A stretch of DNA of 64,000 nt, from assembly GCA_003605115.1 (NCBI GenBank), contig QZKY01000014.1, positions 1-64,000 on the forward strand, written 5' to 3'. The notes beneath the pieces were generated by a model. That model made no database searches, was not told where the DNA came from, and saw only the letters and a program-made list of their open reading frames with translations. This document shows positions 20,019-37,478 of this stretch, in pieces. The translations under genes were made by a program, and so were the position numbers. Position 1 is the stretch's first letter; each line of letters begins with the position of its first letter. The stretch comes from Oxalobacter sp. GTDB lineage: Bacteria > Pseudomonadota > Gammaproteobacteria > Burkholderiales > Burkholderiaceae_D.

Positions 20019-20032
20019 TTGACCTTAGTCAA
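20019..20032. promoter_or_regulatory. Second TTGAC-N4-GTCAA operator between frc and the Crp-type gene
   Basis: TTGACCTTAGTCAA, centre 38 bp from the first site. It would lie near -80 for frc and about 50 nt before the regulator's start, so it may serve both activation of frc and autoregulation. It differs from the oxc operator (read as TTGACCTAAGTCAA) only in the central bases. Confidence 0.65.
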
Positions 20033-20078
20033 TTTTCTGGATACCCTTACGCACTGCACCCTGTTTACGTAAGGTTTT

Positions 20079-20687: not shown

Positions 20688-20752
20688 CGGCGAACCCCGT
20701 AAGCACATACACTCATGCTGCACATGACCTTACTTGATTCCTACAAATCACC

Positions 20753-22111
20753 ATGAATATAGTCATCCTCGCTGCCGGCATGGGAAAACGCATGCATTCC
20801 GATTTACCCAAGGTACTACATCCCTTGGCGGGCAAACCTCTGTTGGCGCATGTGATTGAGACGGCACGCTCACTCTCCCCGACCAGATTGTGTGTCGTCT
20901 ATGGTCATGGCGGTGATCAGGTTCCCCAGGCTGTAAAAGCAAATGACATTGCCTTTGCGCTCCAGAACCCCCAATTGGGAACAGGTCATGCTGTCATGCA
21001 AGCCTTACCCCACCTGGATAGCACCGCCCCGACGCTGGTGCTGTACGGCGATGTCCCCCTTACCTCCGCAGCCACCTTGCGCCAATTGCTTAAGGTGGCC
21101 GGCCAGGACAATCTGGCCATCCTGACGGTCAATCTCGATGACCCCACTGGTTACGGTCGCATCATTCGCCAGGACGGTCAGATTGCTCGGATTGTCGAGC
21201 AAAAGGATGCCAGCGCGGCAGAAAAGGCCGTCACCGAAATCAACACGGGGATCATGGTCATCCCCACGCCCAAACTCAAGGAATGGCTTGCTGCGCTCTC
21301 AAACAACAATGCCCAAAAAGAGTATTACCTCACGGACATTGTTGCGATGGCCGTGCGCGATGGCGTTTCCGTCGTCTCAGCGCAGCCTGGCGCTATTTGG
21401 GAAACCCTGGGTGTGAACAGCAAAGTGCAACTGGCTGAACTGGAACGCATCCACCAGCGCAGTGTCGCCAACAGTCTGCTGGAACAGGGTGTCACGCTGG
21501 CGGATCCCGCCCGCATCGATGTGCGTGGCACGCTCACTTGCGGGCGCGACGTTTTCATCGACGTCAACTGTATTTTTATCGGACAGGTCACGCTGGGCAA
21601 TGGCGTCACGATTAACGCGAACTGCGTGATCAAGGATGCGATGATCATGAATGGAACGCTGGTTCGCGAGTTCAGTCACATCGATGAAGCTGAAGTGGGT
21701 TCCCATTCCATCATCGGCCCCTACGCCCGCTTGCGTCCCGGCGCCTGTTTGGGCGAAGAGGTTCACATCGGCAACTTCGTGGAAATCAAGAACAGCACCA
21801 TCGCCGCCGGATCCAAAGCCAATCATTTGGCTTATGTGGGCGATTCCACTGTCGGCGCACGCGTCAACATCGGGGCAGGTGCCATCACCTGTAATTTCGA
21901 CGGGGCGAACAAGCACGAAACCATCATTGAGGACGACGCTTTCATTGGCACCAATGTCGAACTGGTTGCCCCCTTGCGCGTCGGCAAAGGCGCCACCATT
22001 GGCGCAGGAACGACCCTCACACGTGATGCGCCAGATGGCGCACTGGTCGTCACGCGCGCCAAAGCCACCATGCGGGAAGGCTGGAAGCGCCCTGAAAAAA
22101 TCAAAAAGTAA
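20753..22111 (+). CDS. glmU: Bifunctional UDP-GlcNAc pyrophosphorylase / GlcN-1-P acetyltransferase
   Basis: 452 residues. The N-terminal uridyltransferase has [24 protein letters not shown] and YGDVPL. The C-terminal left-handed beta helix (from about residue 250) has hexapeptide repeats, [17 protein letters not shown], and the acetyltransferase residues around [11 protein letters not shown] and [11 protein letters not shown]. Makes UDP-GlcNAc for peptidoglycan and LPS; glmS lies 10 kb downstream. Single gene here. Confidence 0.98.
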
Positions 22112-22210
22112 CGCCCTCTCCAACAGGCTGTTGAATTCCCGCGTCAACCAGCCTCGCTATTGAAAATAGCCTTCACAAGCTTTAACCCATATCAATCCGA
22201 AAACCTTTCC

Positions 22211-22235
22211 CCATTGCATGATTGCCATGCAATGG
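22211..22235. promoter_or_regulatory. 25-bp palindrome upstream of phosphoketolase
   Basis: CCATTGCATG and CATGCAATGG form a perfect 10-bp inverted repeat around a 5-nt spacer, within the 313-bp gap 22112-22424. No U-tract follows, so an operator for a dimeric regulator is likelier than a terminator. A shorter palindrome CAACAG-G-CTGTTG lies at 22121-22133. Nothing else is recognised in the gap. Confidence 0.5.
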
Positions 22236-22424
22236 TGTATTGTCTGTAAACAGTAGTTTCTCTTTGCTCCACCAGGCGAGTTGTCTGCTGTTTCATGGCT
22301 TGTACGCAGCGCTTCACAACTTAGGCTTGGCTTGAGTTGCTTCACTTATGTTGCCTCACTTAACCGGCGCATCGCACCGTCTCGCACCCTGCGCTGGCTT
22401 TTCAACTTGAAAAGGAACAGGAAG

Positions 22425-24869
22425 ATGAATTCAATAGCGAAAAAGACAAAAACAACGCCCCCCGCGACGAAGAACACCCCGCTCTCACCGGATATGTTGA
22501 AAAAAATGGACGCCTACTTTAGAGCGGCCAACTACCTGTCCGTTGGGCAGATCTATTTGCTGGATAACGCGATGCTCAGAAAACCTTTGCGCATCGAGCA
22601 CGTCAAGCCGCGCTTGCTCGGGCACTGGGGAACCGTGCCGGGATTGAACTTCATCTATGTCCACTGCAATCGCGTGATCAAAGAACATGATCTGAACATG
22701 ATCTACATCACGGGCCCCGGTCACGGCGGCCCCGGCCTGGTTGCCAACACTTATCTTGAAGGCTCTTACAGCGAGTTTTATCCAAATGTGTCACAAGACG
22801 AAGAGGGCATGCAAAAACTGTTTAAGCAGTTTTCCTTCCCCGGTGGTATTCCCAGTCACGTCGCTGCCGAAACGCCAGGCTCGATCCATGAGGGTGGCGA
22901 ACTCGGCTACGCGCTGTCTCACGCCTACGGCGCCGCTTTCGACAATCCGGATCTGATTGTGACCTGCGTCGTCGGTGACGGCGAAGCAGAAACGGGCCCG
23001 CTGGCAACCAGCTGGCATTCAAACAAATTCCTGAACCCTGTGCATGATGGCGCGGTTCTCCCCATCTTGCATCTCAACGATGGCAAAATCGCTGGCCCGT
23101 GCATTCTGGCGCGGATCTCTCATGAAGAACTCGATGCCCTGTTCAAAGGCTACGGCCACAAGGTGTATTACGTCGAAGGCGATGACCCAGTGGAAATGCA
23201 TCAAAAGATGGCCGCCACAATGGATGCCATCATCGCTGAAATCAAGCACATCCAGCAGGAAGCACGCACCAAGGGATTCAAGCAACGTCCCATCTGGCCA
23301 ATGATTGTCTTGCGCTCCCCCAAGGGTTGGACCGGTCCGAAAGTGGTCGATGGCAAAAAAGTGGAGGGCACCTTCCGCTCCCATCAAGTACCGCTCTCCG
23401 AACTCGCGAAAGTGCCGAGCCACTTGAGGCAGCTCGAACAGTGGATGAAGAGTTACAAGCATAACGAACTCTTCGATAAAAACGGTGCTCTGCTCCCTGA
23501 GTTGGCGGAGCTTGCGCCCAAAGGCCAACGACGCATGGGCGCGAACCCGCACGCCAACGGCGGCATTCTGATGCGCGACTTGAAAATGCCGGACTTCCGC
23601 AAATACGAATTCAAGTTCGACAAACCCGGCACGGTAGAAGCCGAAGCCACGCGCATCCAGGGTGCCTTCATTCGCGATGTGATGAAGCAGAATATGAGCA
23701 ACTTCCGCGTGTTCAGTCCCGACGAAAACAATTCCCAGCGCTGGAATGCGGTCATGGAAGTGACCAAACGCACTTGGACAGAGTCCATCTATCCATTTGA
23801 CGACAGCCTCGCTCCGGATGGTCGCGTAATGGAAATGTTGAGCGAACACCAGTGCCAGGGCTGGCTCGAGGGTTATCTGCTGACCGGCCGCCACGGGTTC
23901 TTCTCCTGCTATGAAGCATTCATTCACGTTGTCGACTCGATGTTCAACCAGCATGCGAAGTGGCTGGAAATCTCGCGCCGCATCTCGTGGCGTCGCCCGA
24001 TTCCATCACTGAACTATCTCTTGTCCTCACACGTCTGGCGCCAGGATCACAATGGCTTGAGTCACCAAAATCCGGGCTTCCTGGATCACGTGATGAACAA
24101 AAAGGCGAGCATTACCCGCGTTTATCTTCCGCCGGATGCCAATACCTTGCTGTCGGTCACGGATCATTGCTTGCGCAGTCGCCATTACGTCAACGTGGTG
24201 GTCGCCGGCAAGCAGCCTGCACTGCAATACCTGACGATGGATGAAGCCATCAAGCATTGCACGGTCGGCGTCGGCATCTGGGATTGGGCAAGCAACGACC
24301 ACGGCGGTGAGCCCGATGTCGTCATGGCATGCTGCGGTGATGTGCCCACCCTGGAAACCCTGGCTGCAACCGAAATCATGCGCGAGCACATGCCGGGTTT
24401 GAAGGTGCGCGTCGTCAATGTCGTTGACTTGATGACCTTGCAGCCGCAAAGCGAACATCCTCACGGTTTGTCTGACAAGGATTTCGACATGATCTTCACC
24501 AAGGACAAACCCATCGTTTTCGCTTTTCATGGCTATCCGTGGCTGATCCACCGCCTGACTTACCGTCGCACCAATCACGGCAACCTGCATGTGCGCGGCT
24601 ACAAGGAAGAAGGCACCACCACCACGCCGTTCGATATGGTGGTGATGAATGATCTGGATCGCTACCATCTGGTCATGGATGTCATTGACCGTCTGCCACA
24701 ACTCGGTTCCAGTGCCGCGTATCTGCAAAAAATGTTGCGCGACAAGCTCCTGGATCACAAAGCCTACGTCGCGGAACACGGCGAAGACATGCCGGAAATC
24801 CAGAACTGGAAATGGGGTGCGGGAAGTTCGCTGATTAGCGCTCCGAGGAAAAAGTCACGTCGCAAATAA
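22425..24869 (+). CDS. xfp: Xylulose-5-phosphate/fructose-6-phosphate phosphoketolase
   Basis: 814 residues from the ATG at 22425, behind AGGAACAGGAAG; the frame upstream lacks family similarity. ThDP-dependent enzyme splitting xylulose-5-P (or fructose-6-P) with phosphate into acetyl-P and glyceraldehyde-3-P (or erythrose-4-P). Visible: [23 protein letters not shown], the ThDP motif [19 protein letters not shown], and DENNSQRW with the GFFSCYEAF region. It offers a direct route from pentose phosphates to acetyl-P. No pta/ackA is adjacent. Confidence 0.96.
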
Positions 24870-24903
24870 CGCTACATAGCCAAAATTTGTACGCTTGGCT
24901 GCA

Positions 24904-24953
24904 AGAAAAAACAGGTTCGGTTCTTGATTGGAACCGAACCTGTTCTGTTTTTT
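24904..24953. terminator. Bidirectional terminator between xfp and the ABC operon
   Basis: AACAGGTTCGGTTC (24910-24923) and GAACCGAACCTGTT (24931-24944): a 14-bp perfect stem with a 7-nt loop, with AAAAA on the left and TTTTTT close on the right. It ends both convergent transcripts. Confidence 0.93.
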
Positions 24954-25030
24954 GAACTGTTCATTGTCACCCTCAACCAGCCGCGCTTCGGACAAAGCGT
25001 CTGCGTTCACAACAGCTTTTCAAGATTCCT

Positions 25031-25693
25031 TCACAGCTGCCTGCCATCTTTGAGCGTAATTACCGTATCGGCCATCGCCATCACATCCGGATCGTGGGTC
25101 GCGATAATCAAGGTGGTGCCATTGTTGCGGCACAGCGAGAACGTCAATTCAATCAACTGTTTGCCGTTCCCGGAATCCAGGCTGGCCGTGGGCTCGTCTG
25201 CCAGCAGAATGGCGGGGGAGTGAGCGATAGCGCGTGCAAAAGCAATGCGCTGCGATTCACCGGCAGAAAGCTCCACTGGCATCGCCTTGTCGTAACCGGC
25301 AAGGCCAAATGTCTCCAGCAAAACGGCGATGCGTCTCCCTTGTTCGCTTCCCCGGATATTGTTCAGCTCAAGCGGCACTTGCAAATTTTCCGCCACCGTC
25401 AGCCAGGGCAGCAAATTGCTTGCCTGAAAAACAAACCCGACTTCGCGTTTTCTGAACTGCGCGCGCTTGCTTGCGCTGAGCGCTCCAATGTTGATGCCGT
25501 TGAAAAGGATCGCTCCGCTGTCCGGCGTTTCCAATGTGCCGATACAGTTGAGCAGGGTCGTTTTCCCCGAGCCGGAACGTCCCGCGAGAATCACGCCTTC
25601 CCCTTTCTGCACTGAAAATGAAATGCCCGAAATCGCAGCAACGTGGCCACGCCCTGAAAGGAATTGTTTGGAGACGTTTTGCAATTGAATCAT
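25031..25693 (-). CDS. ABC transporter ATP-binding protein, LolD/MacB type
   Basis: 220 residues from the ATG at 25693, 2 nt past the permease stop. Walker A GRSGSGKTT, Q-loop FVFQASNLLPWLT, a signature helix VELSAGESQRIAFARA (Ser-Ala-Gly-Glu instead of LSGGE), Walker B ILLADEPTASLD and switch His in ATHD. These match the MacB/LolD/FtsE group, which power mechanotransmission or lipoprotein release rather than classical import. Last gene of the 28.5-25.0 kb leftward operon with an FtsX-type permease, a prenyl-synthase-like gene and a methyltransferase. The substrate is unknown. Confidence 0.93.
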   Translation of the reverse strand: MIQLQNVSKQFLSGRGHVAAISGISFSVQKGEGVILAGRSGSGKTTLLNCIGTLETPDSGAILFNGINIGALSASKRAQFRKREVGFVFQASNLLPWLTVAENLQVPLELNNIRGSEQGRRIAVLLETFGLAGYDKAMPVELSAGESQRIAFARAIAHSPAILLADEPTASLDSGNGKQLIELTFSLCRNNGTTLIIATHDPDVMAMADTVITLKDGRQL

Positions 25694-25695
25694 GA

Positions 25696-26865
25696 TCAGA
25701 CGCTCCTCAGGATATCCGCCGGATTCTTCCGCAGCACGTAAACCATCGGCCACACCGCCGCCAGCAAACCAAACAGCACGGCAACCAGTGGTGGCGCGAA
25801 TAGCGTGAATCCCGTAAGTCGCGGGATGAGAATACTGGAGACGGCAAAGTACTGGTTATGTGAGATGTAAGCGCTCATGTCAATCCCGACGCTCGCAAAA
25901 ATATTCACAAACACCGCACCGATGAGCGCGCCCAAGACTGCGGCACAAAACGTCAGCAAGCCAATTTGCATGAGCAGGAGTAGTGCTGTGTCGCGTGACG
26001 TGAAGCCCATCGCTTTCATGATGCCATGTTCGCGTAGATTCTTCAGCGTGAAAATCAGAAAGGCGCAGGCCGTGCCAATGGAAACGATGGCGAATACCAG
26101 AAAGATGACGATACGCATGCAGAAATCGTTCATGTCGATCAATTCCTTCAGATCAGGCATGAATTCGTTCCATGTGGCAAAAGTAGCCGAAGGCAATACA
26201 CTTCGGTATTGCATGACGATGGCTTCAGGCGAAGCATCCGCTTCCAGAAAAACGGCGACGGAAAGTTTGTCTTCACGCGATGGCAAGGCTCGCGCGGGAA
26301 TGAACGCAACGCCATGATCGAGCACAGTCACGCCTGTCTTGTAAGCGCCGACTATCTTCAGATTTGTCAGGCGCACGCCCTGTCGATCCATCACGCTGAC
26401 ACTGTCACCAACACCTGCCTGAAGTCGCTTGAGAATGCTTTCGCTGAGAAAAATCGTTTCTTCACCTTGCTTTGTTTCGTCAGCAAGGTAAGCGCCTTGC
26501 GCCGTTTTTTTCCAGTACGCGGCTACCCGCTTTTCCTGATCGGGATGCACGCCAATCAGATCGACGGGTTCCATACCTTTTCCAAAACGCAACAGCACGG
26601 GCAAGCGCTGTCGCACCAGCACCTGCTTGACGCCCGGCACACTGAGTAGCGGCACATCTGTCGCTGCAATGTCGTTGCCCGCGATGTGCCCTGCATACAG
26701 TCCGGTCGAATTGCGGATCATCGCATCGTTCGTCCCCACCGCCAGCGCCAACAGAAATACCAGCGCCGCCACCGCTGAAACAATCATGAAGGAGAGCACG
26801 ACCGTCGCCCGCCAGGAACGCCAAAGAATCAACCCGGATAATTTGAACAGAAAGGAGGCTCTCAT
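25696..26865 (-). CDS. FtsX/LolC-like ABC permease
   Basis: 389 residues. One N-terminal membrane helix (VVLSFMIVSAVAALVFLLALAV), a periplasmic MacB-type domain of about 220 residues, then three C-terminal helices separated by the coupling motif LREHGIMKAMGFTSRD, typical of LolC/E and MacB permeases. The end KNPADILRSV is the standard FtsX-domain tail. Only one permease gene is present, so a homodimer is expected. No LolA or outer-membrane partner is next to it. Role inferred: moving a lipid or lipoprotein, or signalling across the membrane, for the linked redox cluster. Confidence 0.9.
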   Translation of the reverse strand: MRASFLFKLSGLILWRSWRATVVLSFMIVSAVAALVFLLALAVGTNDAMIRNSTGLYAGHIAGNDIAATDVPLLSVPGVKQVLVRQRLPVLLRFGKGMEPVDLIGVHPDQEKRVAAYWKKTAQGAYLADETKQGEETIFLSESILKRLQAGVGDSVSVMDRQGVRLTNLKIVGAYKTGVTVLDHGVAFIPARALPSREDKLSVAVFLEADASPEAIVMQYRSVLPSATFATWNEFMPDLKELIDMNDFCMRIVIFLVFAIVSIGTACAFLIFTLKNLREHGIMKAMGFTSRDTALLLLMQIGLLTFCAAVLGALIGAVFVNIFASVGIDMSAYISHNQYFAVSSILIPRLTGFTLFAPPLVAVLFGLLAAVWPMVYVLRKNPADILRSV

Positions 26866-26885
26866 ATTTTTAGTATGGACATGTT

Positions 26886-27893
26886 TCAGTCCATTTTAAC
26901 GCCGATGCGATTCGCAATAAAACTGGCAGCGGGTCGCACAAACGACTGGTGCTCATCGAGAAACAACTGCCGCAAACCGCTTTCCAGCGTCGTCATGGCC
27001 AGCGTTTTCATTCGGACGAACAATTCCGGGCAAGATGCATAGAAGCGATCGATCGTTTGTTCGCACGAAACGCCATTCCGCATCTGCTCACAAAGCGACG
27101 CCGACTCCTGATGAACGATGACAGACGCTACATAATTGTGTCGCTGTTCATGCACATCAATGAAAAGATCGACGATATCATCGAATATCTGACAACCAAT
27201 GCCAATTTGGTGAAGCGCCTCCTGTACTGATTGAACCTCCGCTTGCGCTTTGTTGGTGATTTCCTTTTCGAAAAGCGCGGGAATCGCCCAAGTGGACTGG
27301 AAGAGTATGCCGGTTTTGAGATGGTGAATCTTGCTCAGAATAACGTCGGGCGCCAGGCGTTCCTCCTGCGCTCCGATACCGCCCTCTTCCGACGCTTCCT
27401 GCACGCCGCTTCGCGTCAGCGCTTGCAGAGATGCGGTGCTTGCCTGCAGCGCGAGGTCAACAGAAAAATCATGCGCGCGGCAATAGTCTTGCAAGATGGC
27501 GAACAAAACGCGATCCGCAACCATGATGTCGAGCACGGAACGAAAGCGATGCGCCTGTGGCGGCAGATCAGTTTCAAGTGTGACTTTATATTCATCATCC
27601 AGAAGATTGTCGCAACCCGTCACCATGCCGCGCAAACATTGATTGACCGCCGCGTAAAGAATGCGTCGCTCTGAAGGAATGCCAGTACGATAGTAGGAAT
27701 AGAGAAAAAGCGTCGAGAAAAAATTGCGCGGCAGCGAAAAGCTCGCCTGATCCGTCGGCACCAATTGAATCGCGCTCCCATTGAGTATCGTTCCCGCCGT
27801 TCTCCAGAAACGCTCCAGCCCGGCGCGAAGCTCGGATTCCAACGTGCTGATCACGCCGTAGTGTTGTGCGAAAAGGGTAAATGGATTGGTCAT
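26886..27893 (-). CDS. Class I isoprenoid-synthase-like protein (divergent polyprenyl synthetase)
   Basis: 335 residues. Two Asp-rich motifs characteristic of trans-prenyl diphosphate synthases are recognisable: CDNLLDDE (Asp95, Asp99, Asp100; an altered first motif) and IFDDIVD (Asp238, 239, 242; a normal second motif). Much of the rest differs from the true octaprenyl synthase IspB encoded at 34390 in this window, so the product is probably different. Its start codon overlaps the methyltransferase stop by 4 nt. A prenyl synthase plus a UbiE-like methyltransferase recalls hepS-menG-hepT and suggests a dedicated quinone or lipid. This is inference. Confidence 0.8.
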   Translation of the reverse strand: MTNPFTLFAQHYGVISTLESELRAGLERFWRTAGTILNGSAIQLVPTDQASFSLPRNFFSTLFLYSYYRTGIPSERRILYAAVNQCLRGMVTGCDNLLDDEYKVTLETDLPPQAHRFRSVLDIMVADRVLFAILQDYCRAHDFSVDLALQASTASLQALTRSGVQEASEEGGIGAQEERLAPDVILSKIHHLKTGILFQSTWAIPALFEKEITNKAQAEVQSVQEALHQIGIGCQIFDDIVDLFIDVHEQRHNYVASVIVHQESASLCEQMRNGVSCEQTIDRFYASCPELFVRMKTLAMTTLESGLRQLFLDEHQSFVRPAASFIANRIGVKMD

Positions 27894-28546
27894 GCGGGCT
27901 TTGTTGTTGAAAACACGGCGATATAGCCGAAATATTCGGCGACGATTTTTGGCGGCATGAAGCCCGCTGCTTCAATCAAACCCGGCAACACGCCGCGAAT
28001 GTTTTCACCGATCTGCGGCTGCATGAGCACCCAGCGTGACGCGTGTGAAATCAGCAAGCCGAAAAACGTCGTGGGCTTGTGCATGTCCGCAATCATCAAT
28101 CTGCCGCCGGGCTTCAGCACACGAAATGCTTCCTGCAAACTTTGCTGTTTCAAATCCAGCGGCACATGATGATAGAAGAGACTGGAGATCACGGCATCGA
28201 AAGACGCGTCGGGGAAATGAAGATTTTCTGCAGCCATCGCTTCAAAACGGCAGTGCGGCGCGCCGCGCTTTTCGCGTGCCGCCGCGATCATCCTGCCAGC
28301 GGCGTCAATGCCGACAATATAGCCGCCCTTGTCAGGATCCAGCAATTGACTGATCTTGTGGCAAAGCAGGCCGGTGCCGCAACCCAGATCGAGAATGGCA
28401 TCGGACGGTTGAGGGGCAATCGCCCGAATCAATGTATCGTCGTACTCCGCTTGCTTGCTGAAAAGGCATAGCGGTTCCAGCACGTCGTAAACCGACGCAG
28501 CATAATCAAGCGTACGACCTTTGGTTGGTATGGATGAAATCGTCAT
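27890..28546 (-). CDS. SAM-dependent methyltransferase, UbiE-like
   Basis: 218 residues with AAGGAAAGG upstream of the ATG. Motif I is LDLGCGTGLLCHKI, the acidic post-I residue is in VGIDAAGRMI, DAVISSLFYHHV is motif II, and VLKPGGRLMIADMHKP is motif III. It resembles UbiE/MenG-type quinone methyltransferases but lacks their full signature. First gene of the leftward operon, head-to-head with the small-protein/apbE/rnfCD operon. The prenyl-synthase gene next to it hints at an isoprenoid substrate. Confidence 0.87.
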   Translation of the reverse strand: MTISSIPTKGRTLDYAASVYDVLEPLCLFSKQAEYDDTLIRAIAPQPSDAILDLGCGTGLLCHKISQLLDPDKGGYIVGIDAAGRMIAAAREKRGAPHCRFEAMAAENLHFPDASFDAVISSLFYHHVPLDLKQQSLQEAFRVLKPGGRLMIADMHKPTTFFGLLISHASRWVLMQPQIGENIRGVLPGLIEAAGFMPPKIVAEYFGYIAVFSTTKPA

Positions 28547-28579
28547 GTGAACCTTTCCTTAGTGCTTCCTGAGCGCGTT

Positions 28580-28618
28580 CTTAACATGTTCTTAACGCAC
28601 GCTTAACACTTTCTTAAA
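28580..28618 (+). promoter_or_regulatory. Four CTTAAC-type repeats with exact 11-bp period
   Basis: CTTAAC at 28580, 28591 and 28602 and CTTAAA at 28613, each 11 bp apart. Weaker matches continue the phase to the left (CTGAGC 28569, CTTAGT 28558). Helically phased direct repeats are the hallmark of OmpR/PhoB-family response regulators; the hexamer is close to PmrA/QseB-type boxes. A candidate -10 (CATATT, 28627) stands 8 bp to the right, suiting activation of the rightward operon. The array lies in the 272-bp gap between the two divergent operons. Confidence 0.75.
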
Positions 28619-28818
28619 CTTTGCAGCATATTTACGTTGAACCCGTGAAATGCGTTCGACGATTGTAATTCACTTCAAGCTTTTTTGTAGATGCTGGTCA
28701 ATGGACATGTGTGTGCGTCAGCGAGATCGGTATTTTTGCAGTATCATCACTGCACAGTTTGTAGTCCATATAGGAGTTCGGCGCTGTATGTTATTGAGAA
28801 CAACCGCAAGGAGAAGTT

Positions 28819-29109
28819 ATGACACAAGTAATACAATCCATTAAAAATGTTGCGCTGTTTCTGTTCGGTGTAAGCGTAATTGTGGCTGGCGCTAAAGTGA
28901 ACGATGCCAACGCACAAGCAAAGGAAGAAGCGGCACAGGCGAGAGCGGCAGAAGTCGCTGAAAAGGCAAAGGCACAGGTAGCCGCCGAACGTGCAAGGTC
29001 TGCGAAATCCACAACTACAGTAGAAAAGGCAAAGCCAGAAAAGGCAAGCGCCTCCAAACATAAAGTAAAAGTTGACTCCAAATTCAAATTTGATTCCGAC
29101 CCAAAATAA
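28819..29109 (+). CDS. Small exported Lys/Ala/Glu-rich protein
   Basis: 96 residues behind an AAGGAG site. A hydrophobic N-terminus (VALFLFGVSVIVAGA) ends with a possible signal-peptidase site near ANA-QA. The rest is highly charged: a run of Ala/Lys/Glu/Arg likely forming one helix (residues ~34-65), then a Lys/Ser-rich end. No Cys, no haem or FMN motif. First gene of the operon with apbE, rnfC and rnfD, 18 nt before apbE. Function unknown. Confidence 0.75.
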   Translation: MTQVIQSIKNVALFLFGVSVIVAGAKVNDANAQAKEEAAQARAAEVAEKAKAQVAAERARSAKSTTTVEKAKPEKASASKHKVKVDSKFKFDSDPK

Positions 29110-29127
29110 ACATATTGCGACGGCAAG

Positions 29128-30063
29128 ATGAACGATTTTTTGTACAAGGTACAAACGCGCTTCTTGTTTCACGCGGATGTGCGCATCAAGATTCCAGCGG
29201 CATGTACGGACGACCACTTCGACGCACTCTTTGACATCCTTGAGCGCATCGACAAACGCTACAACTCTTACCAAAAGGGGTCTTATTTCGATTTGATCAA
29301 TCAGCACGCGGGAAATTTCGTCACAGTCGATGACGAAGTGATTCGCATGCTCAAACAGGTAAAAGAATTTTCTGCTTTCTTTGATGGGCGCTATGCCATT
29401 ACGGTTATGCCCCTCATTCGCCTCTGGGGGTTTTACAAGGGCAATGTACGGCGTGTGCCTACCCCTGACGAAATAGCGCACGTGTTGCCACTGGTAGATG
29501 ACGACAAGATTGATATTCTCGGCAACGATGTTCGCATTGCAAAAGGGCAGGAAATCGTCACGGGTTCCTTCATCAAGTCTTATGCGGTGGATCAGTTGAT
29601 GAAGAAGATGCGCGAGATGCGGATCAGCGATGCAATTGTGAATGCCGGTGGCAGTACGATCATGGCACTCAATAATACCAGTCATCCTTTCTGGCAAACG
29701 AGTGTCGATATACCCGGAAAGAACGATCCGCTATTTCTGCTCAACATCGCCAACCAGGCTTACTCCACCTCCGCGCAAGGGGACAGTTTTGTTGAAATTG
29801 ACGGTAAACGCTATGGGCATATACTGAACCCCAAAACGGGATATCCTTCAATAAATCGGATGGTGGGCGTTGTCACCGATAGTGCGATGTTGGGTGATAT
29901 GCTGTCGACTGGGCTCTTCAATGAAACGCGAACCGAGTTTCTGCAAAAAATGCAGCAACTCCAGCAGCACTATCCGAACTTGGCCATTGAAGGGTTTCTG
30001 ATGGATGAAGCAGGACAGCTTATACAGACGGCGGGATTTGAGGCGCATAAAGAACCCGCGTAA
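29128..30063 (+). CDS. apbE: FAD:protein FMN transferase, ApbE-like, without signal peptide
   Basis: 311 residues. ApbE joins FMN through a phosphoester to Thr/Ser of target proteins. Visible: the early RYNSYQKGS region, GSFIKSYAVDQ (usually GxxxKGYAxD), NAGGSTIM, YGHILNPKTGYP and the C-terminal DSAMLGDMLSTGLF with the metal-binding Asp. It begins MNDFLYKVQTRFLF with no signal peptide or lipobox, unlike most ApbE lipoproteins, so it probably works in the cytoplasm. Directly upstream of rnfC and rnfD, its expected clients, although RnfD lacks an obvious FMN-acceptor Thr. Confidence 0.88.
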   Translation: MNDFLYKVQTRFLFHADVRIKIPAACTDDHFDALFDILERIDKRYNSYQKGSYFDLINQHAGNFVTVDDEVIRMLKQVKEFSAFFDGRYAITVMPLIRLWGFYKGNVRRVPTPDEIAHVLPLVDDDKIDILGNDVRIAKGQEIVTGSFIKSYAVDQLMKKMREMRISDAIVNAGGSTIMALNNTSHPFWQTSVDIPGKNDPLFLLNIANQAYSTSAQGDSFVEIDGKRYGHILNPKTGYPSINRMVGVVTDSAMLGDMLSTGLFNETRTEFLQKMQQLQQHYPNLAIEGFLMDEAGQLIQTAGFEAHKEPA

Positions 30064-30075
30064 AGGAGCGCATGC

Positions 30076-31350
30076 ATGTTGCAATTTGCATCCACCAAAA
30101 TCGTCACAAAAGCGAAGCCGATCGAAACGCTGGCGGAGTCTGCGTTTTTGCACCTGCCACTCTCTGCTTATCATGGCCACTTTGCCCACCCGGTTGTGCA
30201 AGCCGGCGACATGGTATTGAAATACCAGTTGATCGCCAAAGCCGGCGATCCTTTCTCTGCCAATGTTCACGCACCAGTTTCGGGGCGTGTGGTCGGGGTG
30301 CAGAAATTTCCAGATTGTGGCGGAGGCATGACGTCGATGCTGGTCCTGCAAAACGATTTTGCGGGGGCGTGCATCGACTTCCCTGCGATTCCATCAGACG
30401 ATCCGCCCGCAGACACCATCCTGGATTTGCTGTCAGCCGCTGGCGTGATCGGCGCGGGCGGCGCACAGTTTCCGACAGCGCTGAAATATCGCGCTGCTGG
30501 ACAACACATTCAGGCCTTCATCATTAACGGTACGGAATGCGAGCCTTATCTGACGGCAGATTACGTGCTGATGCGCGAACGCACTGCGTCGTTGTTCGAA
30601 GGCATTCGCCTCGTCAACACGTTTTTGCAAGCCAAGGAAGTCGTGATCGTGATCGAAGATCACAATCATGAACTGCTCACCGTATTTGCGCCCTATCTCG
30701 CGCAAGCGCGCTATGCAGGCATTCGCATGCAGGTGGTGATGGAAGAATATCCGCAGGGCAGTGAACGGCAGATCGTTTTTGCCGTCACTGGTCGCGAAAT
30801 GGCGCCGCCGCTGCATCCTTCCCGTGAAGGGTTTGTGGTCAGCAATGCAGGCACTGTCGTCGCAGCGTACCACGCACTGGCAGAACGCTTGCCAGTGGTG
30901 AATCGCATTGTCACCGTTTCCGGCGACGGCCTCCAGCAGGCCGGTAATTATGAAGTCCCCATCGGGACGCCCGTCGGCTATCTGCTCAATCAGCTCGGGA
31001 TTACGCCGGAACATTACACCATTGTGTTGGGCGGGCCGATGATGGGTCGACATGTGACAGACTGGGCGTCACCTGTCACCAAAGGTAGCGGGGGTATTCT
31101 TGTTTTGCCGCGTGATCCCGTCAAACGAGAAAACTGCATTGGCTGTAGCAGATGTGTTGAAGCCTGTCCGATGCGTTTGATGCCGCTGAAATACGACGAG
31201 GGATGGCGGCGCAGCAATCTCGCCATGCTGAAAAATTATCAGCTCCCTGTGTGTATCGAGTGTGGCGCATGTGAATATGTGTGCCCGTCCAATGTGCCGC
31301 TGGTGGCTTCCATCAAGGCCGGCAAGCTACTGCTTAGAAAAGAGGGGTGA
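30076..31350 (+). CDS. rnfC: RnfC-like electron transport subunit
   Basis: 424 residues, AAAGGAG upstream. N-terminal barrel-sandwich part (about 35-75), then an NADH/FMN-binding region with VIGAGGAQFPTALKYRA and EEYPQGSERQIVFAVTGREM. Two [4Fe-4S] motifs follow: CIGCSRCVEACP (Cys354/357/360/364) and CIECGACEYVCP (Cys393/396/399/403). In Rnf complexes RnfC is the peripheral NADH-side subunit. It lacks the long C-terminal extension of E. coli RsxC. Its stop codon nearly touches rnfD. No rnfA, B, E or G is present on either side. Confidence 0.92.
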   Translation: MLQFASTKIVTKAKPIETLAESAFLHLPLSAYHGHFAHPVVQAGDMVLKYQLIAKAGDPFSANVHAPVSGRVVGVQKFPDCGGGMTSMLVLQNDFAGACIDFPAIPSDDPPADTILDLLSAAGVIGAGGAQFPTALKYRAAGQHIQAFIINGTECEPYLTADYVLMRERTASLFEGIRLVNTFLQAKEVVIVIEDHNHELLTVFAPYLAQARYAGIRMQVVMEEYPQGSERQIVFAVTGREMAPPLHPSREGFVVSNAGTVVAAYHALAERLPVVNRIVTVSGDGLQQAGNYEVPIGTPVGYLLNQLGITPEHYTIVLGGPMMGRHVTDWASPVTKGSGGILVLPRDPVKRENCIGCSRCVEACPMRLMPLKYDEGWRRSNLAMLKNYQLPVCIECGACEYVCPSNVPLVASIKAGKLLLRKEG

Positions 31351-31352
31351 TC

Positions 31353-32435
31353 ATGAAAGCGCTCATCACCCCGCCCTTTATCAGACAGTCGGATTCCGTC
31401 ACCAAAATCATGGCGGATGTCCTTTTTGCGCTGCTACCATGCTGCGTGATGGCATGGGTCGCTTTCGGTTGGACACCTGTCATCGTTATTCTGGTCGCTT
31501 GCGGTAGTGCGGTGCTGACCGAACTCTTGTTTTTTCGTTTGTGTTCATGCTTTGGTTTCGGTAATACCGATGCCGTTGCTGATGGTTCATCACTCGTGAC
31601 CGGCACTTTGCTGGCATGTACGCTGGCGCCCTTCACGCCGCTGTATGTGGTGGCGTTCGGTGGCGTGATGGCGGTGCTCTTCGGCAAGCTGCTGCATGGC
31701 GGACTTGGCCGAAATCGCTTCAACCCCGCCTTGGTCGGCAGAGAATTCATGACGGTGTTTTTCCCGGCGGTGATGACATCAGGTGCTATCTGGTACAACG
31801 AAGAAGCGGTGAAATTTTCCAGCCTGAATGTACTGCACAATGAATTTTTTGACGCGCTCATTTTCAAAGGCAGTGGCGCAGTCGGCGAGTACTCCCCACT
31901 ATTGTTGGTGCTGGGTGGCCTCTATCTGCTGCTGCGTAATCGCATTAGCTGGCATATCCCCACCGCGCTCACGGTGACTTTTACGCTACTTTTTGTGGCC
32001 GTTTCACAAGGGGATTACAGTTTTTCGCTGGGGGGGGTGCTACTGGGCGCCATCTATATGGCGACGGATATGCCTTCCAGTGCTTCCACACGCACAGGCC
32101 AGATTTACTACGGTGCGATGATTGGCGCGGTGGCCGTGCTGTGCATCGCCTGTGACGTGCAGCATGCTTACATGTCCTATGCCATTTTGCTGCTCAATGC
32201 ATTCGTCGTACCAATCAATTGGGTCTTCAGGACGCGTGTCTGGGGAGAAAAGGTGCATTGGCCGCAGCGTCTGGTGCAAGGTGCCGGGCTGACCCTTGCC
32301 ATTCTGGGCGCAGCATGGGGGCTCACCTGGCTGCACGCCAAAGACTGGATGATCCATCTAATCTTGCTCTATATTGTCTGGAGCATAGGGGGGTTCATTT
32401 TCCGCCAATTCCGGCCGGACGCCGCTGCCCCATAA
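31353..32435 (+). CDS. rnfD: RnfD-like membrane subunit
   Basis: 360 residues from the ATG at 31353 with AGAGGGG upstream. About nine to ten membrane helices. RnfD/NqrB landmarks are LVTGTLLACTLAP, LGRNRFNPALVGREF and ATDMPSSASTRTGQI. In canonical RnfD the FMN-carrying Thr sits in an SGAT or SQAT motif in the loop that follows; here the only similar string is SGAI (residues 143-146), with Ile in place of Thr. Either FMN is not bound covalently or the site lies elsewhere. Last gene of the operon. Confidence 0.9.
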   Translation: MKALITPPFIRQSDSVTKIMADVLFALLPCCVMAWVAFGWTPVIVILVACGSAVLTELLFFRLCSCFGFGNTDAVADGSSLVTGTLLACTLAPFTPLYVVAFGGVMAVLFGKLLHGGLGRNRFNPALVGREFMTVFFPAVMTSGAIWYNEEAVKFSSLNVLHNEFFDALIFKGSGAVGEYSPLLLVLGGLYLLLRNRISWHIPTALTVTFTLLFVAVSQGDYSFSLGGVLLGAIYMATDMPSSASTRTGQIYYGAMIGAVAVLCIACDVQHAYMSYAILLLNAFVVPINWVFRTRVWGEKVHWPQRLVQGAGLTLAILGAAWGLTWLHAKDWMIHLILLYIVWSIGGFIFRQFRPDAAAP

Positions 32436-32575
32436 GCTTCCACGCCCGAACCTCCAACCCGCAAGCACAAAGCCCCTAAAATTCAGACATTTGACGGTAG
32501 AATAGCGGGCTTGCCCTGCCGTTTCGAGAATTGGGGCAATTATTACTCTGTCCATTACCTCAAAAGACTACTTTT

Positions 32576-34393
32576 ATGTGCGGCATTGTCGGCGCGATTG
32601 CGCAACGCAACATCACTCCTGTCCTGATTGAAGGTCTCAAACGCCTGGAATACCGTGGCTACGACTCTTGCGGTCTGGCGCTACGCATCGATGGCGAATT
32701 GCAGCGCGCCCGCAGCACCTCCCGCGTAGCCGACCTGGAAAAACAAGTCGCGGACACCCAGCAAAGCGGCGTGCTCGGCATCGCCCACACACGCTGGGCG
32801 ACCCACGGCGCACCGACCTCGAACAATGCCCACCCGCATTTTTCCCGTGGCCGTATCGCGCTGGTGCATAACGGCATCATCGAAAATCACGATGAATTGC
32901 GCGCTGAATTAAAAACACTTGGCTTTACGTTTGAAAGCCAAACCGACACCGAAGTCATCGCACATCTCGTTGAACACCTCTATGCTGGCGACCTGTGTGA
33001 GGCCGTCAAGCAAGCCATCAAGCGCCTGACGGGTGCTTATGCCATTGCCGTTATTTGCCGCGATGAGCCGAACCGCATGGTGGGGGCACGCGCTGGGTCA
33101 CCCCTGATCGTTGGCGTGGGCAAAGGTGAAAACTTCCTCGCCTCCGACGCGATGGCGCTCGCCGGCACCACGGACCAAATCATTTATCTGGAAGAAGGCG
33201 ATGTCGTCGATCTGAATTTGAACGACTACCACATCACCGACGTGTATGGCAAACCGGTCAAACGCGAAGTTCGCTCCGTGCAAGCCTATACCGCCGCTGC
33301 GGAACTCGGCCCGTACCGCCATTACATGCAAAAAGAAATTTTTGAGCAACCGCGCGCCATCGCGGACACGCTCGAAGGCGTGGAAGGCATCGTGCCGGAT
33401 TTGTTCGGCGATCAAGCAGCGGTTGTTTTCAAAAAAATAGACTCCTTGTTGATCCTGGCCTGCGGCACCAGTTATTACGCTGGCCTCACTGCAAAATATT
33501 GGCTGGAATCCATCGCGAAAATTCCGGTCAATGTCGAAATTGCCAGCGAATATCGCTATCGCGACAGCGTGCCCAACCCCAACACCCTGGTCGTCACCAT
33601 CACCCAAAGCGGCGAAACGGCGGACACGCTGGCCGCCTTGCGCCATGCCAGCGAACAAGGCATGAAGCATACGCTGACCATTTGCAACGTTGCCACCAGT
33701 GCGATGGTGCGCGAATGCGCACTCGCCTACATCACCCGCGCCGGCATTGAAGTCGGCGTGGCTTCCACCAAAGCTTTCACCACGCAATTGGCCGCACTGT
33801 TCTTGCTGACCCTCACGCTAGCCAAGATGAAAGGTCGCCTCACCGCAGAACAGGAAACCGAACATTTGCGCGCGATGCGCCATTTGCCTGTTGCGATTTC
33901 GGCTGCACTTGCGCTGGAACCGCAAATCATCGCTTGGGCAGAAAGTTTCGCCCGGATGGAAAATGCACTGTTCCTGGGACGCGGCGTGCATTATCCGATT
34001 GCACTGGAAGGTGCGCTCAAGCTCAAGGAAATCTCGTATATTCACGCCGAAGCGTATCCGGCGGGCGAATTGAAACATGGCCCGCTGGCGCTGGTCACCG
34101 AAGAAATGCCGGTCGTGACCATTGCCCCCAACGATGACTTGATCGACAAACTCAAATCCAACATGCAGGAAGTGCGCGCGCGTGGCGGGCAGCTCTTCGT
34201 GTTTGCCGATGCCGATTCGCGCATCATGCCGAGCGAAGGCATCCATGTGATCCGTTTGCCAGAACATTACGGCATGCTCTCGCCAATCTTGCATGTCGTT
34301 CCGCTGCAATTGCTGGCTTATCACACGGCGCTGGTGCGCGGTACCGATGTGGACAAGCCGCGCAATCTGGCGAAATCCGTCACCGTGGAATGA
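32576..34393 (+). CDS. glmS: Glutamine:fructose-6-phosphate aminotransferase
   Basis: 605 residues from the ATG at 32576, which exposes the catalytic Cys2 ([12 protein letters not shown]). Amidotransferase residues HTRWATHG and HNGIIEN are present, followed by two SIS domains ([38 protein letters not shown]) and the C-terminal LAKSVTVE. Makes glucosamine-6-phosphate, first step to UDP-GlcNAc. I see no ribozyme-like structure upstream. The stop overlaps the ispB start. Confidence 0.97.
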
Positions 34394-35370
34394 TGACCGG
34401 CAATAACGGTAACGCGCCCATCTTGTCGGTCGTCTCCGACATGGCATCTGTTGATCGCATCATCCGCGAGCAATTGCACTCGGATGTAGCGCTTATCAAT
34501 CAGATTGGCGAATACATTGTTAACGCCGGTGGCAAACGAATCCGCCCCTCTCTCTTGCTCCTCTTTGCCAAGGCTTTGGGTTATTCAGGCGAGCATCATC
34601 ACACGCTCGCTGCGATGATAGAGCTCATTCACACCTCGACGCTGCTGCATGACGACGTCGTCGATGAATCTTCCCTGCGGCGCGGTCAGCCCACCGCGAA
34701 TGCGCTTTTTGGCAACGCCGCTTCGGTGCTGGTCGGGGATTTCATTTATACCCGCACCTTCCAAATGATGCTTGCAGTAGAAAACATGCGCATCATGCAC
34801 ATCATGGCTAACGCCACCAATATCATTGCCGAGGGCGAAGTCATGCAGTTGATGAGCCTTCGGGATGCGAGCGTCACCGAAGCGCAGTACATGCAGGTCA
34901 TCCACGCAAAAACGGCCGCACTTTTCGAGGCTGCCACTACCATTGGCGCCCTGATCGCAGGCGCACCCGAACCCACCATTACCGCAGCCGCTGAGTATGG
35001 CAAACAGTTTGGCATTGCCTTTCAATTGGTCGACGATGCCCTAGATTACACCGGCAATGCCGACGATATTGGCAAGAGCCTGGGCGACGATTTACGTGAA
35101 GGCAAAATGACCTTGCCCTTGATACGCCTGATGCAAACCGGTACCGACAAACAAGCTCAGCTCGTCAGACAATGCATCGAAAACGGCAACAACGACAACT
35201 TTGATGCTATCGTTGAAGCACTATCATCGTCTGACAGCATCCAGTACGCCCGAGGGCTCGCGCAGCATGCTGCACAGGCCGCTGCGCGCGCCATCACGCC
35301 GCTTCCCCATAGCCAATTCAAGGAAACTTTGCTAGAATTGGCGGCTTTCGCGGCGGATCGAAATCACTGA
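34390..35370 (+). CDS. ispB: Octaprenyl diphosphate synthase
   Basis: 326 residues. [12 protein letters not shown], the first Asp-rich motif [10 protein letters not shown] followed by RRGQPTAN, and the second QLVDDALDY are all canonical, in contrast to the divergent paralogue at 26886. Makes the C40 side chain of ubiquinone. Starts by ATGA-type overlap with glmS. In most Betaproteobacteria ispB sits upstream of rplU; here the rplU-rpmA-obg block is 6 kb away. Confidence 0.95.
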
Positions 35371-35380
35371 CCCGCCCAAG

Positions 35381-35459
<79 letters not shown>

Positions 35460-35507
35460 AAATCGCTCCCCCTTTTCCCATTATCAATACCGGCCATTCA
35501 GACCGAT

Positions 35508-36281
35508 ATGTACAGCAGCTTCTATTTTCCCGACCGGGTAAAGTACGACTCGCCGGAACGCGCTGGGCTGGCGTTCGAGCCATTGTTCTTCAACAGCGCC
35601 GACGGCACACTACTGTCTGGCTGGTTCATACCGGCGCAAGAAGTGGGCAACCCGCTGGAAGCAAAAGGCACGGTGCTGCACATGCATGGCAATGCGCACA
35701 ACATGACGATGCAGTGGCAGTATGTGCAATGGGTACCGGAGCACGGTTATAACGTCTTTGTATTCGACTATCGTGGCTATGGTCAGTCGCACGGCACACC
35801 GGAACCGAAGGGCGTGTTTGAAGATGCCGTTGCTGCCCTTGATTATGTCCGCTCGCGTGCCGACATCGACACAGACAAACTCTTCGTATTCGGCCAAAGC
35901 CTGGGCGGCATGATCGCCATTGCTTCCGTCGGTGCCAGCCCGCAAGGCGTGCGTGCGGTACTGGCCGAGGCACCCTTCCATTCTTACACGGCACTGGCTG
36001 ACGACAGGACGCCGGGCGAGGGTGCAATCGTGGACGAAACCTGGAGCGCAAGCACACATGTCGCCAAACTGGCGCCAATTCCATTGCTACTCATCCATGG
36101 CACGAGCGACAGAGTGGTGCCTTATTCACATTCGGAAATGCTGCTGGCCGAAGCGCATGAGCCGAAGCAGTTGGTAACGGTCGCGGGCGGCGACCACCTC
36201 GACATTATGACCGACCGTTACGGCACGACGTATCAGGACATGATGGTCGACTTCTTTGCGCGCGCACTGCAAAAAACCTGA
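35508..36281 (+). CDS. Alpha/beta hydrolase (active copy of a tandem pair)
   Basis: 257 residues. Typical fold signs: LSGWFIPA, HMHGNAHNMTMQW (oxyanion region), FDYRGYGQSHGT, nucleophile elbow FGQSLGGM with Ser, acid in IHGTSDRVVP and His in GGDHLDIM. It resembles the bem46/YfhR-type serine hydrolases of unknown substrate. No signal peptide. Follows tRNA-Pro by 50 nt with no clear ribosome site. A paralogue of the same length starts 171 nt downstream. Confidence 0.88.
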   Translation: MYSSFYFPDRVKYDSPERAGLAFEPLFFNSADGTLLSGWFIPAQEVGNPLEAKGTVLHMHGNAHNMTMQWQYVQWVPEHGYNVFVFDYRGYGQSHGTPEPKGVFEDAVAALDYVRSRADIDTDKLFVFGQSLGGMIAIASVGASPQGVRAVLAEAPFHSYTALADDRTPGEGAIVDETWSASTHVAKLAPIPLLLIHGTSDRVVPYSHSEMLLAEAHEPKQLVTVAGGDHLDIMTDRYGTTYQDMMVDFFARALQKT

Positions 36282-36452
36282 ACCTCTCGTATCATCGTAC
36301 ACAGCGCATGCGGATTTCCTTCCCTGCCAATAGCCCAATACCGTATTTTGAGATGCTACAATTCGCAGGTTATCGACCATAGCAAGCTATGCCATACACG
36401 CCGTAAGGCCATTTGCTCTGCCGTTTTTTCACCTTTTTTCTTCATCGACATT

Positions 36453-37226
36453 ATGTATAGACGCATCTTTTACCCTGACAACATCCAAGCGACCACGCCG
36501 GAAAAATTTGGTCTTGATTATGAGCGTGTCTACTTCAACAGCGAAGATGGCACGCGTTTGATTGGCTGGTTTATTCCTGCGACAACGGTTTCCAGTCCGA
36601 AAGAAGCCAAGGGCACGGTCATCCACATGCACAACTACTCGGGCAATATCTCGTCGAACTGGCACTTTGCCGGCTGGCTGCCCGACCAAGGCTATAACCT
36701 GTTCACCTTTGACTATCGCGGCTTTGGCAAATCCATGGGCACCACCGAACCCAAAGGCGTTCTGGAAGACGCGGTTGCCGCCATCACTTATCTGCGTTCG
36801 CGCACCGATATCGACACCAGCAAAATTTGTATCTTCGGGCAAGGCCTTGGCGGTACCCTGGCCATTGCAGCAACAGTCCTCAACCCACAAGGCATACGCG
36901 CGGTTGCCGCGGAATCTACCTTTTATTCCTATTCCTCAGTGGTTGACGACCGGCGCCCCGGCGAAGGTTACGGCTACGAGAAGGACGACATCTACAGCGG
37001 CGGCCATTACGTGTCGAAACTTGCTGTTCCGCTGCTGCTCATCCACGGCGAGCGCGATGAAATTACTTATCCCTCCCACTCCGAGCGCCTGCTGGCAGAA
37101 GCAACCTGCCCCAAGGAACTGTTATTGATTGCTCACGGACGCCACCTGGCTGCCATGACGGAGCACTATAACGGCTGGTATCAGACGCGTATTCTGGAAC
37201 TGTATGAGAATGCGCTGAAGAAGTAA
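36453..37226 (+). CDS. Alpha/beta hydrolase paralogue lacking the nucleophilic serine
   Basis: 257 residues from the ATG at 36453 (MYRRIFYPDN aligns with MYSSFYFPDR of the upstream copy; the longer frame is not conserved). Same order of motifs: IGWFIPA, HMHNYSGNIS, FDYRGFGKSMGT, IHGERDEITYPSHSE and HGRHLAAM. The elbow reads FGQGLGGT: Gly (GGC) replaces the catalytic Ser (AGC), a one-base change. Acid and His seem kept. It is thus probably not a serine hydrolase; it may bind without catalysis or pair with its neighbour. A terminator follows. Confidence 0.87.
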   Translation: MYRRIFYPDNIQATTPEKFGLDYERVYFNSEDGTRLIGWFIPATTVSSPKEAKGTVIHMHNYSGNISSNWHFAGWLPDQGYNLFTFDYRGFGKSMGTTEPKGVLEDAVAAITYLRSRTDIDTSKICIFGQGLGGTLAIAATVLNPQGIRAVAAESTFYSYSSVVDDRRPGEGYGYEKDDIYSGGHYVSKLAVPLLLIHGERDEITYPSHSERLLAEATCPKELLLIAHGRHLAAMTEHYNGWYQTRILELYENALKK

Positions 37227-37240
37227 GCCTCTTCAGGAAT

Positions 37241-37271
37241 AAAAAACCGGCACTTGTGTGCCGGTTTTTTT
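37241..37271 (+). terminator. Terminator after the hydrolase pair
   Basis: ACCGGCAC and GTGCCGGT around TTGT, flanked by AAAAAA and TTTTTTT. Symmetric, so it could work both ways. Confidence 0.9.
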
Positions 37272-37297
37272 ATGCTCAAACACAATCATCGACCCAA

Positions 37298-37438
37298 GGA
37301 AACGCTGAGAACCGTCGTGAGCGGTTGGAGGGCAAGGCGCACGGCGCGCAGGAACCGGAGTGTACTTAGACGTACATGAGGATTCCGAGCACCGCGCAAC
37401 GCAGCCATCCGACCGCACAACAGGTTGTCAGCGTTTCC
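37298..37438. repeat. 141-bp dispersed palindromic element with terminal inverted repeats
   Basis: Ends are GGAAACGCTGA (37298-37308) and TCAGCGTTTCC (37428-37438). Inside are further symmetrical blocks, with TGTAC-N6-GTACA near the centre. No reading frame uses it. The right half recurs in diverged form at 48821-48900, so it is a family rather than a one-off. It lies between two convergent terminators. Confidence 0.75.
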
Positions 37439-37441
37439 GTA

Positions 37442-37478
37442 AAAAAGAAATGCCCCTTGAATTGACATTCAAGGGGCA
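37442..37478 (-). terminator. Terminator of oxc
   Basis: TGCCCCTTGAA (37451-37461) and TTCAAGGGGCA (37468-37478), 11-bp perfect stem, 6-nt loop. Minus-strand readout continues into TTTCTTTTTT. Confidence 0.92.

Follow-up and report, generated by a model that had tools for sequence, protein, structure and literature searches.

The window analysed here is a stretch of 64,000 nucleotides from Oxalobacter sp. (contig QZKY01000014.1, positions 1 to 64,000), part of a genome of 2.32 Mb in 17 contigs that is 99.94% complete. Between positions 25031 and 32435 it carries eight genes in two divergent operons, an arrangement described in an initial annotation and recovered in full by our check of the open reading frames (ORFs), which placed 8/8 at the same positions and on the same strands. 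The rightward operon encodes a small protein, the flavin mononucleotide (FMN) transferase ApbE, and the Rnf subunits RnfC and RnfD; the leftward operon encodes a methyltransferase, a prenyl-synthase-like protein and an ATP-binding cassette (ABC) transporter. Our analysis suggests that the rightward operon is a half-Rnf, in which the NAD arm of the Rnf complex would work by itself. The features are collected in Table 1.

Table 1. Genes and repeat array between positions 25031 and 32435 of the window.
Feature	Position	Strand	Remarks
ABC ATPase, LolD/MacB type	25031..25693	-	PF00005; probably separate operon
FtsX/MacB-type ABC permease	25696..26865	-	PF02687 and PF12704; probably separate operon
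Prenyl-synthase-like protein	26886..27893	-	DNLLDDE and DDIVD motifs (by eye); probably separate operon
S-adenosylmethionine-dependent methyltransferase, UbiE/ArsM-like	27890..28546	-	PF13649, PF01209; probably separate operon from half-Rnf
Four CTTAA(C/A) hexamers, 11-bp period	28580..28617	+	between the divergent operons
Small protein, 96 aa	28819..29109	+	N-terminal hydrophobic segment (residues 11-25), Ala/Lys/Glu-rich linker, tail VEKAKPEKASASK, then 16-residue extension
ApbE, flavin adenine dinucleotide (FAD):protein FMN transferase	29128..30063	+	PF02424 above cut-off
RnfC	30076..31350	+	TIGR01945 379.8 (cut-off 245.95); NADH/FMN domain, two 4Cys [4Fe-4S] motifs
RnfD, separate subfamily	31347..32435	+	PF03116 232.4 (cut-off 27.7); TIGR01946 189.1, under cut-off 207.05

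Families were assigned by Pfam and NCBIfam profile searches against curated cut-offs. Those named in the initial annotation hold, with reservations for RnfD, which scores under the cut-off of TIGR01946, and for the prenyl-like protein, which reaches 24.9 bits with PF00348, under the cut-off of 27. To the small protein no Pfam or NCBIfam family could be assigned (DUF7266 gave 17.9 bits, under its cut-off of 27.6). Beyond that annotation, we noted that RnfD appears to have lost its flavin-anchoring threonine, that no signal peptide is visible in ApbE, and that the tail of the small protein is conserved. The G+C content is 46-48% across the small protein and ApbE (28500-30000) versus ~53-56% on either side, which suggests a different history for this segment.

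The conserved unit at this locus is small protein-ApbE-RnfC-RnfD. A scan with six exact peptide patterns of RnfD gave nine loci, namely Oxalobacter formigenes HC-1 (69% RnfD identity), seven Bacteroidota (42-48%), and a Leptotrichia (41%). ApbE, RnfC, and RnfD are adjacent and in the same order in HC-1 and in 7/7 Bacteroidota loci, and a small protein precedes ApbE in all eight. Within the window's own GTDB family (343 genomes, its own included), an RnfD profile matched five genomes, its own and four of another genus of the family, g7, once each, with no match in the two congeners of the window genome (G001 and G002). Three of the g7 genomes (G008, G535, and G644) hold small protein, RnfC, and RnfD together and ApbE elsewhere in the genome, where it again has its own small protein directly upstream (3/3). 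ApbE and RnfCD are present together or missing together in 7/7 genomes examined, with exactly one ApbE in the five that have the subfamily RnfD and zero in the two congeners that do not, at a completeness of 91% for G001, 95% for G002, and 62% for G644.

Farther afield, the RnfD profile gave 210 matches among 398 Pseudomonadota (own genome included), the window's own protein scoring 543 bits and the next best 172. The locus of the latter (L064), the one among ten such stretches (L064-L073) covered by gene-by-gene reading, has rnfA and rnfB alongside by eye. Plasmid searches yielded 63 records for RnfD, with a best identity of 34% among the 40 matches listed, and 354 records for ApbE, where each of the 25 listed was an annotated or generic FMN transferase with an identity of 25-30%. 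The Leptotrichia RnfD (L017:9473-11089) belongs to the same subfamily, measures 538 aa, and bears a long charged N-terminal extension; neither RnfC nor ApbE was found within 10 kb of it. We counted it in the tree and the threonine tally and left it out of the operon counts.

The initial annotation had held that RnfC and RnfD, lacking RnfA, B, E, and G, do not form a Rnf pump, and searches of the whole genome support it. The window genome returned 0 matches for RnfA/E and NqrD/E (PF02508) and 0 for FMN_bind (the family of RnfG, NqrC, and PplA), together with one match each for RnfD/NqrB (PF03116) and ApbE, the control genomes being positive throughout; thus no RnfA/E or RnfG lies elsewhere to complete the set. 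No RnfB was seen by eye among the ORFs of positions 20000-37500, and no search aimed at RnfB was made. Because RnfC and RnfD stand without RnfA/E and without FMN_bind, the locus does not encode an Rnf pump.

The RnfD protein stands apart from its relatives. In our tree, 13/13 rows of its subfamily fall on one side of a long branch supported at 100/100, opposite 29 other RnfDs, which were the best-scoring other loci of the profile search, all from Pseudomonadota, so that no ordinary-type Bacteroidota RnfD is represented; L017 was flagged as a long branch. By this tree, the window RnfD is part of a separate clade among the RnfDs compared. The loop that holds covalent FMN reads TTATPL or SGATAL in solved RnfD and NqrB proteins versus AVKFSSLNVL in the window RnfD (the loop being covered in three of four PDB alignments). 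By a whole-protein pattern count, D..[ST].A[ST] occurs in 27 of the 29 comparison RnfDs, the other two reading D..A.AT; in the subfamily the pattern is found in the loop of 0/13 members, or in 1/13 on the whole-protein basis (window, residue 241). Judged by sequence, the subfamily has therefore lost the site of the covalent-FMN threonine. The RnfD fold is kept, with 8ahx_D, 8rbq_D, 9eri_D, and 7zc6_D as best Foldseek matches of a model whose predicted local distance difference test score (pLDDT) is 74.7, and the protein matches PF03116 only, with no fused PF00175 NAD-binding domain. RnfC retains its NADH/FMN region in 12/12 aligned rows, window included, and the cysteines C354, C357, C360, C364, C393, C396, C399, and C403 are invariant in all of them.

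According to an excerpt of PMC12174285, the solved Rnf route connects, in this order, NAD, the FMN and iron-sulphur clusters of RnfC, the riboflavin and the FMN of RnfD, and the FMN of RnfG. As the module keeps the first part of this route and lacks the rest, electrons from NADH should either exit at the outer side or go to quinone. We favour the former, with a probability of roughly 0.55: small-apbE-rnfC-rnfD would be the NAD arm of Rnf alone, a probably one-way half-Rnf that passes NADH electrons to the periplasm. NADH would be oxidised at RnfC by way of FMN and two [4Fe-4S] clusters, and electrons would be taken up into RnfD by a riboflavin that is bound non-covalently close to the cytoplasm, and would exit at the periplasmic face. 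There the small protein, with its hydrophobic segment, flexible linker, and conserved tail, may take the place of RnfG as a carrier or adaptor; in Bacteroidota, the usual acceptor would be a nitroreductase-family lipoprotein encoded right after RnfD. Gene content and order, the lost threonine motif, the conserved tail, and the joint occurrence of ApbE and RnfCD in the genomes compared are observations, whereas we infer the cofactors of this scheme from homology, and likewise infer its direction, its acceptor, and the role of the small protein. An electron path to the periplasm via RnfC and RnfD had been suggested in the initial annotation and, with RnfA/E and FMN_bind at 0 in the genome, it is still the best reading once the eight-gene carrier scheme attached to it is put aside.

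The other exit would make RnfCD a respiratory NADH dehydrogenase that reduces quinone in the manner of NqrB, with no periplasmic carrier. RnfD and NqrB are homologous, the NADH arm is intact, and covalent FMN would presumably be dispensable if quinone were the acceptor. However, NqrB forms its quinone site with two amphipathic helices at the N-terminus, which RnfD does not have (PMC12174285, in excerpt), and the window RnfD begins like RnfD in the PDB alignments. Since the conserved ApbE, the tailed small protein, and the exported-looking flavoenzyme of Bacteroidota also point outward, we regard reduction of quinone as quite improbable.

The Bacteroidota loci offer candidates for the acceptor that the half-Rnf would need. 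In six of the seven (L011, L012, L013, L015, L016, and L018) a nitroreductase-family protein, by eye a lipoprotein, lies directly after RnfD; a Pfam check was made on one of the six. From their lipoprotein-like N-termini, again by eye, these neighbours would be outward-facing flavoproteins. Flavobacterium ustbae has a nitroreductase with a signal- or lipoprotein-like N-terminus on each side of the unit (L016:6635-7330 and 11070-11741). A further lipoprotein-like protein, with a PNPOx domain and the strict ApbE motif DAITGAT, is encoded directly upstream of the small protein in L014 (2767-3360) and is possibly a flavinylated carrier or acceptor. In the Oxalobacter group, no exported flavoprotein neighbour was seen at the RnfCD loci. 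Two candidates were set aside: a lipoprotein nitroreductase in the window's own genome (L023:1264-2013; G000:C3:164325-165071), which belongs to another subfamily with 17-25% identity to seven others, and a nitroreductase ~0.7 kb past RnfD in three Oxalobacter-group genomes, which shows no signal peptide by eye and is separated from RnfD by an opposite-strand gene in at least two of them.

The small protein may hold the link between ApbE and RnfCD. All 15 small proteins compared have an N-terminal hydrophobic segment and a tail of the form [LVI]E-x(4-5)-E-[KNR]-[AS]-[STHG]-x-[ST]-x, which is the very C-terminus in 14/15. With the window extension trimmed, the Glu at -7 and the Ser/Thr at -2 are invariant (15/15). 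Over 12 residues, the five tails of rnfCD operons (window, HC-1, G008, G535, and G644) share 58% identity with the three beside an unlinked ApbE, as against a mean of 12% in shuffles, 0/5000 of which were as high; the Oxalobacter group plus the window shares 33% with Bacteroidota (shuffled 8%, again 0/5000 as high). Identity fades inward from the tail, to 34% and 18% in the next block and 13% and 5% in the following one. Because the proteins of G008 and G535 are near copies, these rows are not independent. Of 5388 ORFs scanned (duplicates counted), a single unrelated one carries the motif at its C-terminus.

A tailed small protein precedes ApbE, and one precedes RnfC as well wherever ApbE is unlinked; this tail is therefore the best candidate for the target of ApbE. 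According to an excerpt of PMC12052999, ApbE flavinylates a seven-residue peptide, Dxx[ST]GA[ST], and does so best at a protein terminus. That the invariant Ser/Thr of the tail receives FMN from ApbE is a tentative proposal from the alignment. More doubtful is a wider scheme in which the small proteins would be a new class of flavin carrier, in which a disordered linker joins a signal or membrane segment to a C-terminal tail E-[KNR]-[AS]-[ST]-x-[ST], and this tail is flavinylated by its own ApbE while still in the cytosol, ahead of export. FMN tethered in this way would then enter the empty FMN pocket of the threonine-less RnfD and carry NADH electrons to periplasmic flavoenzymes, so that an arm of <120 residues would replace RnfG and half of Rnf.

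In the window ApbE, S215, H231, and D257 align with S237, H253, and D281 of 7esa_A, the best PDB match, which we take to be FmnB, consistent with an offset of 20. At that offset these residues of 7esa_A fit the FmnB triad S257/H273/D301 given in an excerpt of PMC12052999. The single ApbE of the genome probably serves the RnfCD module. In a different account, ApbE modifies a cytosolic target, the tail of the small protein is cytosolic or serves in assembly only, and RnfCD sends electrons outward without covalent flavin. ApbE has no visible signal peptide, and cytosolic ApbEs are known, such as the pair with Klebsiella fumarate reductase (PMC12052999, in excerpt). Yet the three small proteins beside an unlinked ApbE look exported, since by eye they begin with a signal-like segment that ends in AQA or ASA, and ApbE comes and goes with RnfCD across the seven genomes described above. 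We consider a purely cytosolic target unlikely.

Several observations weigh against the half-Rnf as we have drawn it. A signal peptide of ApbE is not visible by eye in the window, in HC-1, in G008, G535, and G644, or in the seven Bacteroidota sequences, whereas most of the small proteins have a hydrophobicity and charge suggestive of a tail on the outside (not decisively, as the charge on the C-side is not below that on the N-side in 4/15). The strict ApbE motif Dxx[ST]GA[ST] is present in 0/15 small proteins, and the wider D..[ST].A[ST] in 0/15 small proteins, 0/12 RnfC, and 0/8 nitroreductases, and for this reason the target of ApbE is not established; the tail resembles the strict motif but is one residue short of it, and different. 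The tail motif was also defined on the same proteins on which it was tested, and the window small protein is the only one of the 15 to continue 16 residues past it. In Bacteroidota, the tail overlaps the start codon of ApbE, so that a constraint at the DNA level is possible; the idea that the Bacteroidota tail (ENAS) is a mere by-product of this overlap is weakened by the same tail in six proteins of the Oxalobacter group, which at the start codons chosen do not overlap the next gene. As to RnfD, the wide motif matches the window protein once by chance, outside the loop, and the loops of L012 and L018 hold TPAT and TPAS, with the Asp missing. Among the acceptors, L014, from a Labilibaculum metagenome-assembled genome, has the PNPOx lipoprotein and no nitroreductase, and the L023 nitroreductase does not track RnfCD, having relatives of 75-76% in G001 and G002, which are without RnfD, of 38% in G644 and G073, and none in G008 and G535. 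Finally, one pattern scan supplied the Bacteroidota loci, which are a sample rather than a census.

The leftward operon appears to be an independent orphan, unrelated to the half-Rnf. It had been proposed that all eight genes form one redox and lipid module, in which the methyltransferase and the prenyl-like protein make a dedicated quinone or isoprenoid carrier, the ABC transporter places it, and RnfCD feeds it. We compared 12 other loci (L010, L011-L018, and L061-L063; flanks reached at most ~10 kb, and less in L015 and in L014, a short locus of 11 kb). In tblastn searches, genes for the methyltransferase and the prenyl-like protein were found in 0/12, and the leftward operon had matches to generic ABC ATPases only, in L013 and L061; the expected co-occurrence of the two operons in other genomes thus failed to appear, and the eight-gene module was rejected. 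The prenyl-like protein had a full-length relative neither among 148 related genomes nor among 398 Pseudomonadota (both sets include the window's own genome and share some others), the best hit outside its own genome being partial at 22.1 bits, nor in the plasmids or viral contigs searched. The suggested link to a special quinone is therefore left without comparative support.

The module could still draw on the divergent arrangement of the two operons and on the single unusual repeat array between them. With the methyltransferase and prenyl-like genes missing from 12/12 other loci that have this RnfD, the prenyl-like protein an orphan in the searches made, and the array closer to the leftward operon, we judge it very improbable. 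The LolD/FtsX-like assignment of the transporter stands (PF00005 in the ATPase, PF02687 and PF12704 in the permease), and the leftward operon perhaps makes and exports a methylated isoprenoid. The methyltransferase falls under the cut-off of all 25 NCBIfam models listed, and an AlphaFold2 model of the prenyl-like protein, built without an alignment, has a pLDDT of 37, too low for use. Among plasmids, the permease gave 76 matches, of which the 15 listed show ~24% identity and none spans 80%; the ABC ATPase query used in the searches was 25031-25687, two residues short at the N-terminus.

The array reads CTTAAC-N5-CTTAAC-N5-CTTAAC-N5-CTTAAA, with spacers of exactly 5 bases. A three-copy pattern allowing ≤2 mismatches gave three overlapping matches in the window versus 0.03 expected; a pattern with stricter letters and ≤3 mismatches gave three matches genome-wide, all at 28580-28617, and two in the backward control. 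It is probably the operator of a response regulator; we presume a resemblance to response-regulator boxes of the PmrA/QseB type. The initial annotation had both operons share it. The array itself is borne out by the pattern scans, but its use by both operons is not: it lies 34-71 bp before the ATG of the leftward operon (28546) and ~200 bp before the start of the rightward one (28819), and no comparable repeat is visible by eye upstream of the O. formigenes small protein.

If the half-Rnf reading is correct, Oxalobacter, a relative, and Bacteroidota could use the NAD arm of Rnf by itself as an uncoupled outlet for NADH electrons, which for the genus Oxalobacter would be an unsuspected possible way of disposing of NADH. 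It would also serve as a natural experiment to tell which of the two halves of Rnf is the ion pump, a question described as debated in an excerpt of PMC12174285, and possibly provide a second target motif of ApbE that works as a bare tail. Flavinylation surveys that look for signal peptides, RnfB, or fused NAD domains would miss such clusters. The 2021 survey, as described in excerpts of PMC8238504 and PMC11334425, required a signal peptide or lipidation site on the target gene, and for that reason should have passed over clusters of the window type. In the open-access literature searched, we found no published description of the half-Rnf unit.

Compared with known systems, the half-Rnf shares with the Rnf complex (RnfABCDGE) the NADH, FMN, and two [4Fe-4S] motifs of RnfC and the fold of RnfD. 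It differs in that its genome has no RnfA/E and no FMN_bind RnfG and its RnfD has lost the covalent-FMN threonine motif, which leaves it without half of the path and without the ion-coupling core. The flavin-based extracellular electron transfer of Gram-positive bacteria, with its NADH dehydrogenase, membrane subunits, PplA, and the ApbE-family enzyme FmnB, would be alike in passing NADH electrons to an extracytosolic flavin with the help of an ApbE-family enzyme. In the window genome, however, there is no FMN_bind protein of the PplA type, and RnfC and RnfD would replace the NADH dehydrogenase and membrane subunits. From flavin-tag technology the unit differs in its natural tail, E-[KNR]-[AS]-[STHG]-x-[ST]-x as opposed to the published Dxx[ST]GA[ST] (PMC12052999, in excerpt).

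Of the kinds described so far, the Nqr/Rnf-like two-subunit system comes closest. As presented in excerpts of PMC8238504 and PMC11334425, such systems fuse a PF00175 NADH domain to the membrane protein and have an NqrC/RnfG-like FMN_bind protein as partner, whereas the half-Rnf has a separate RnfC, no FMN_bind in its own genome, an ApbE without a visible signal, and a tailed small protein. The same excerpts describe an NqrB/RnfD-type protein without a flavinylation site, linked to ApbE, and propose a one-way flow from NAD(P)H to the outside; the RnfD of the half-Rnf, too, is without a flavinylation site of its own and linked to ApbE.

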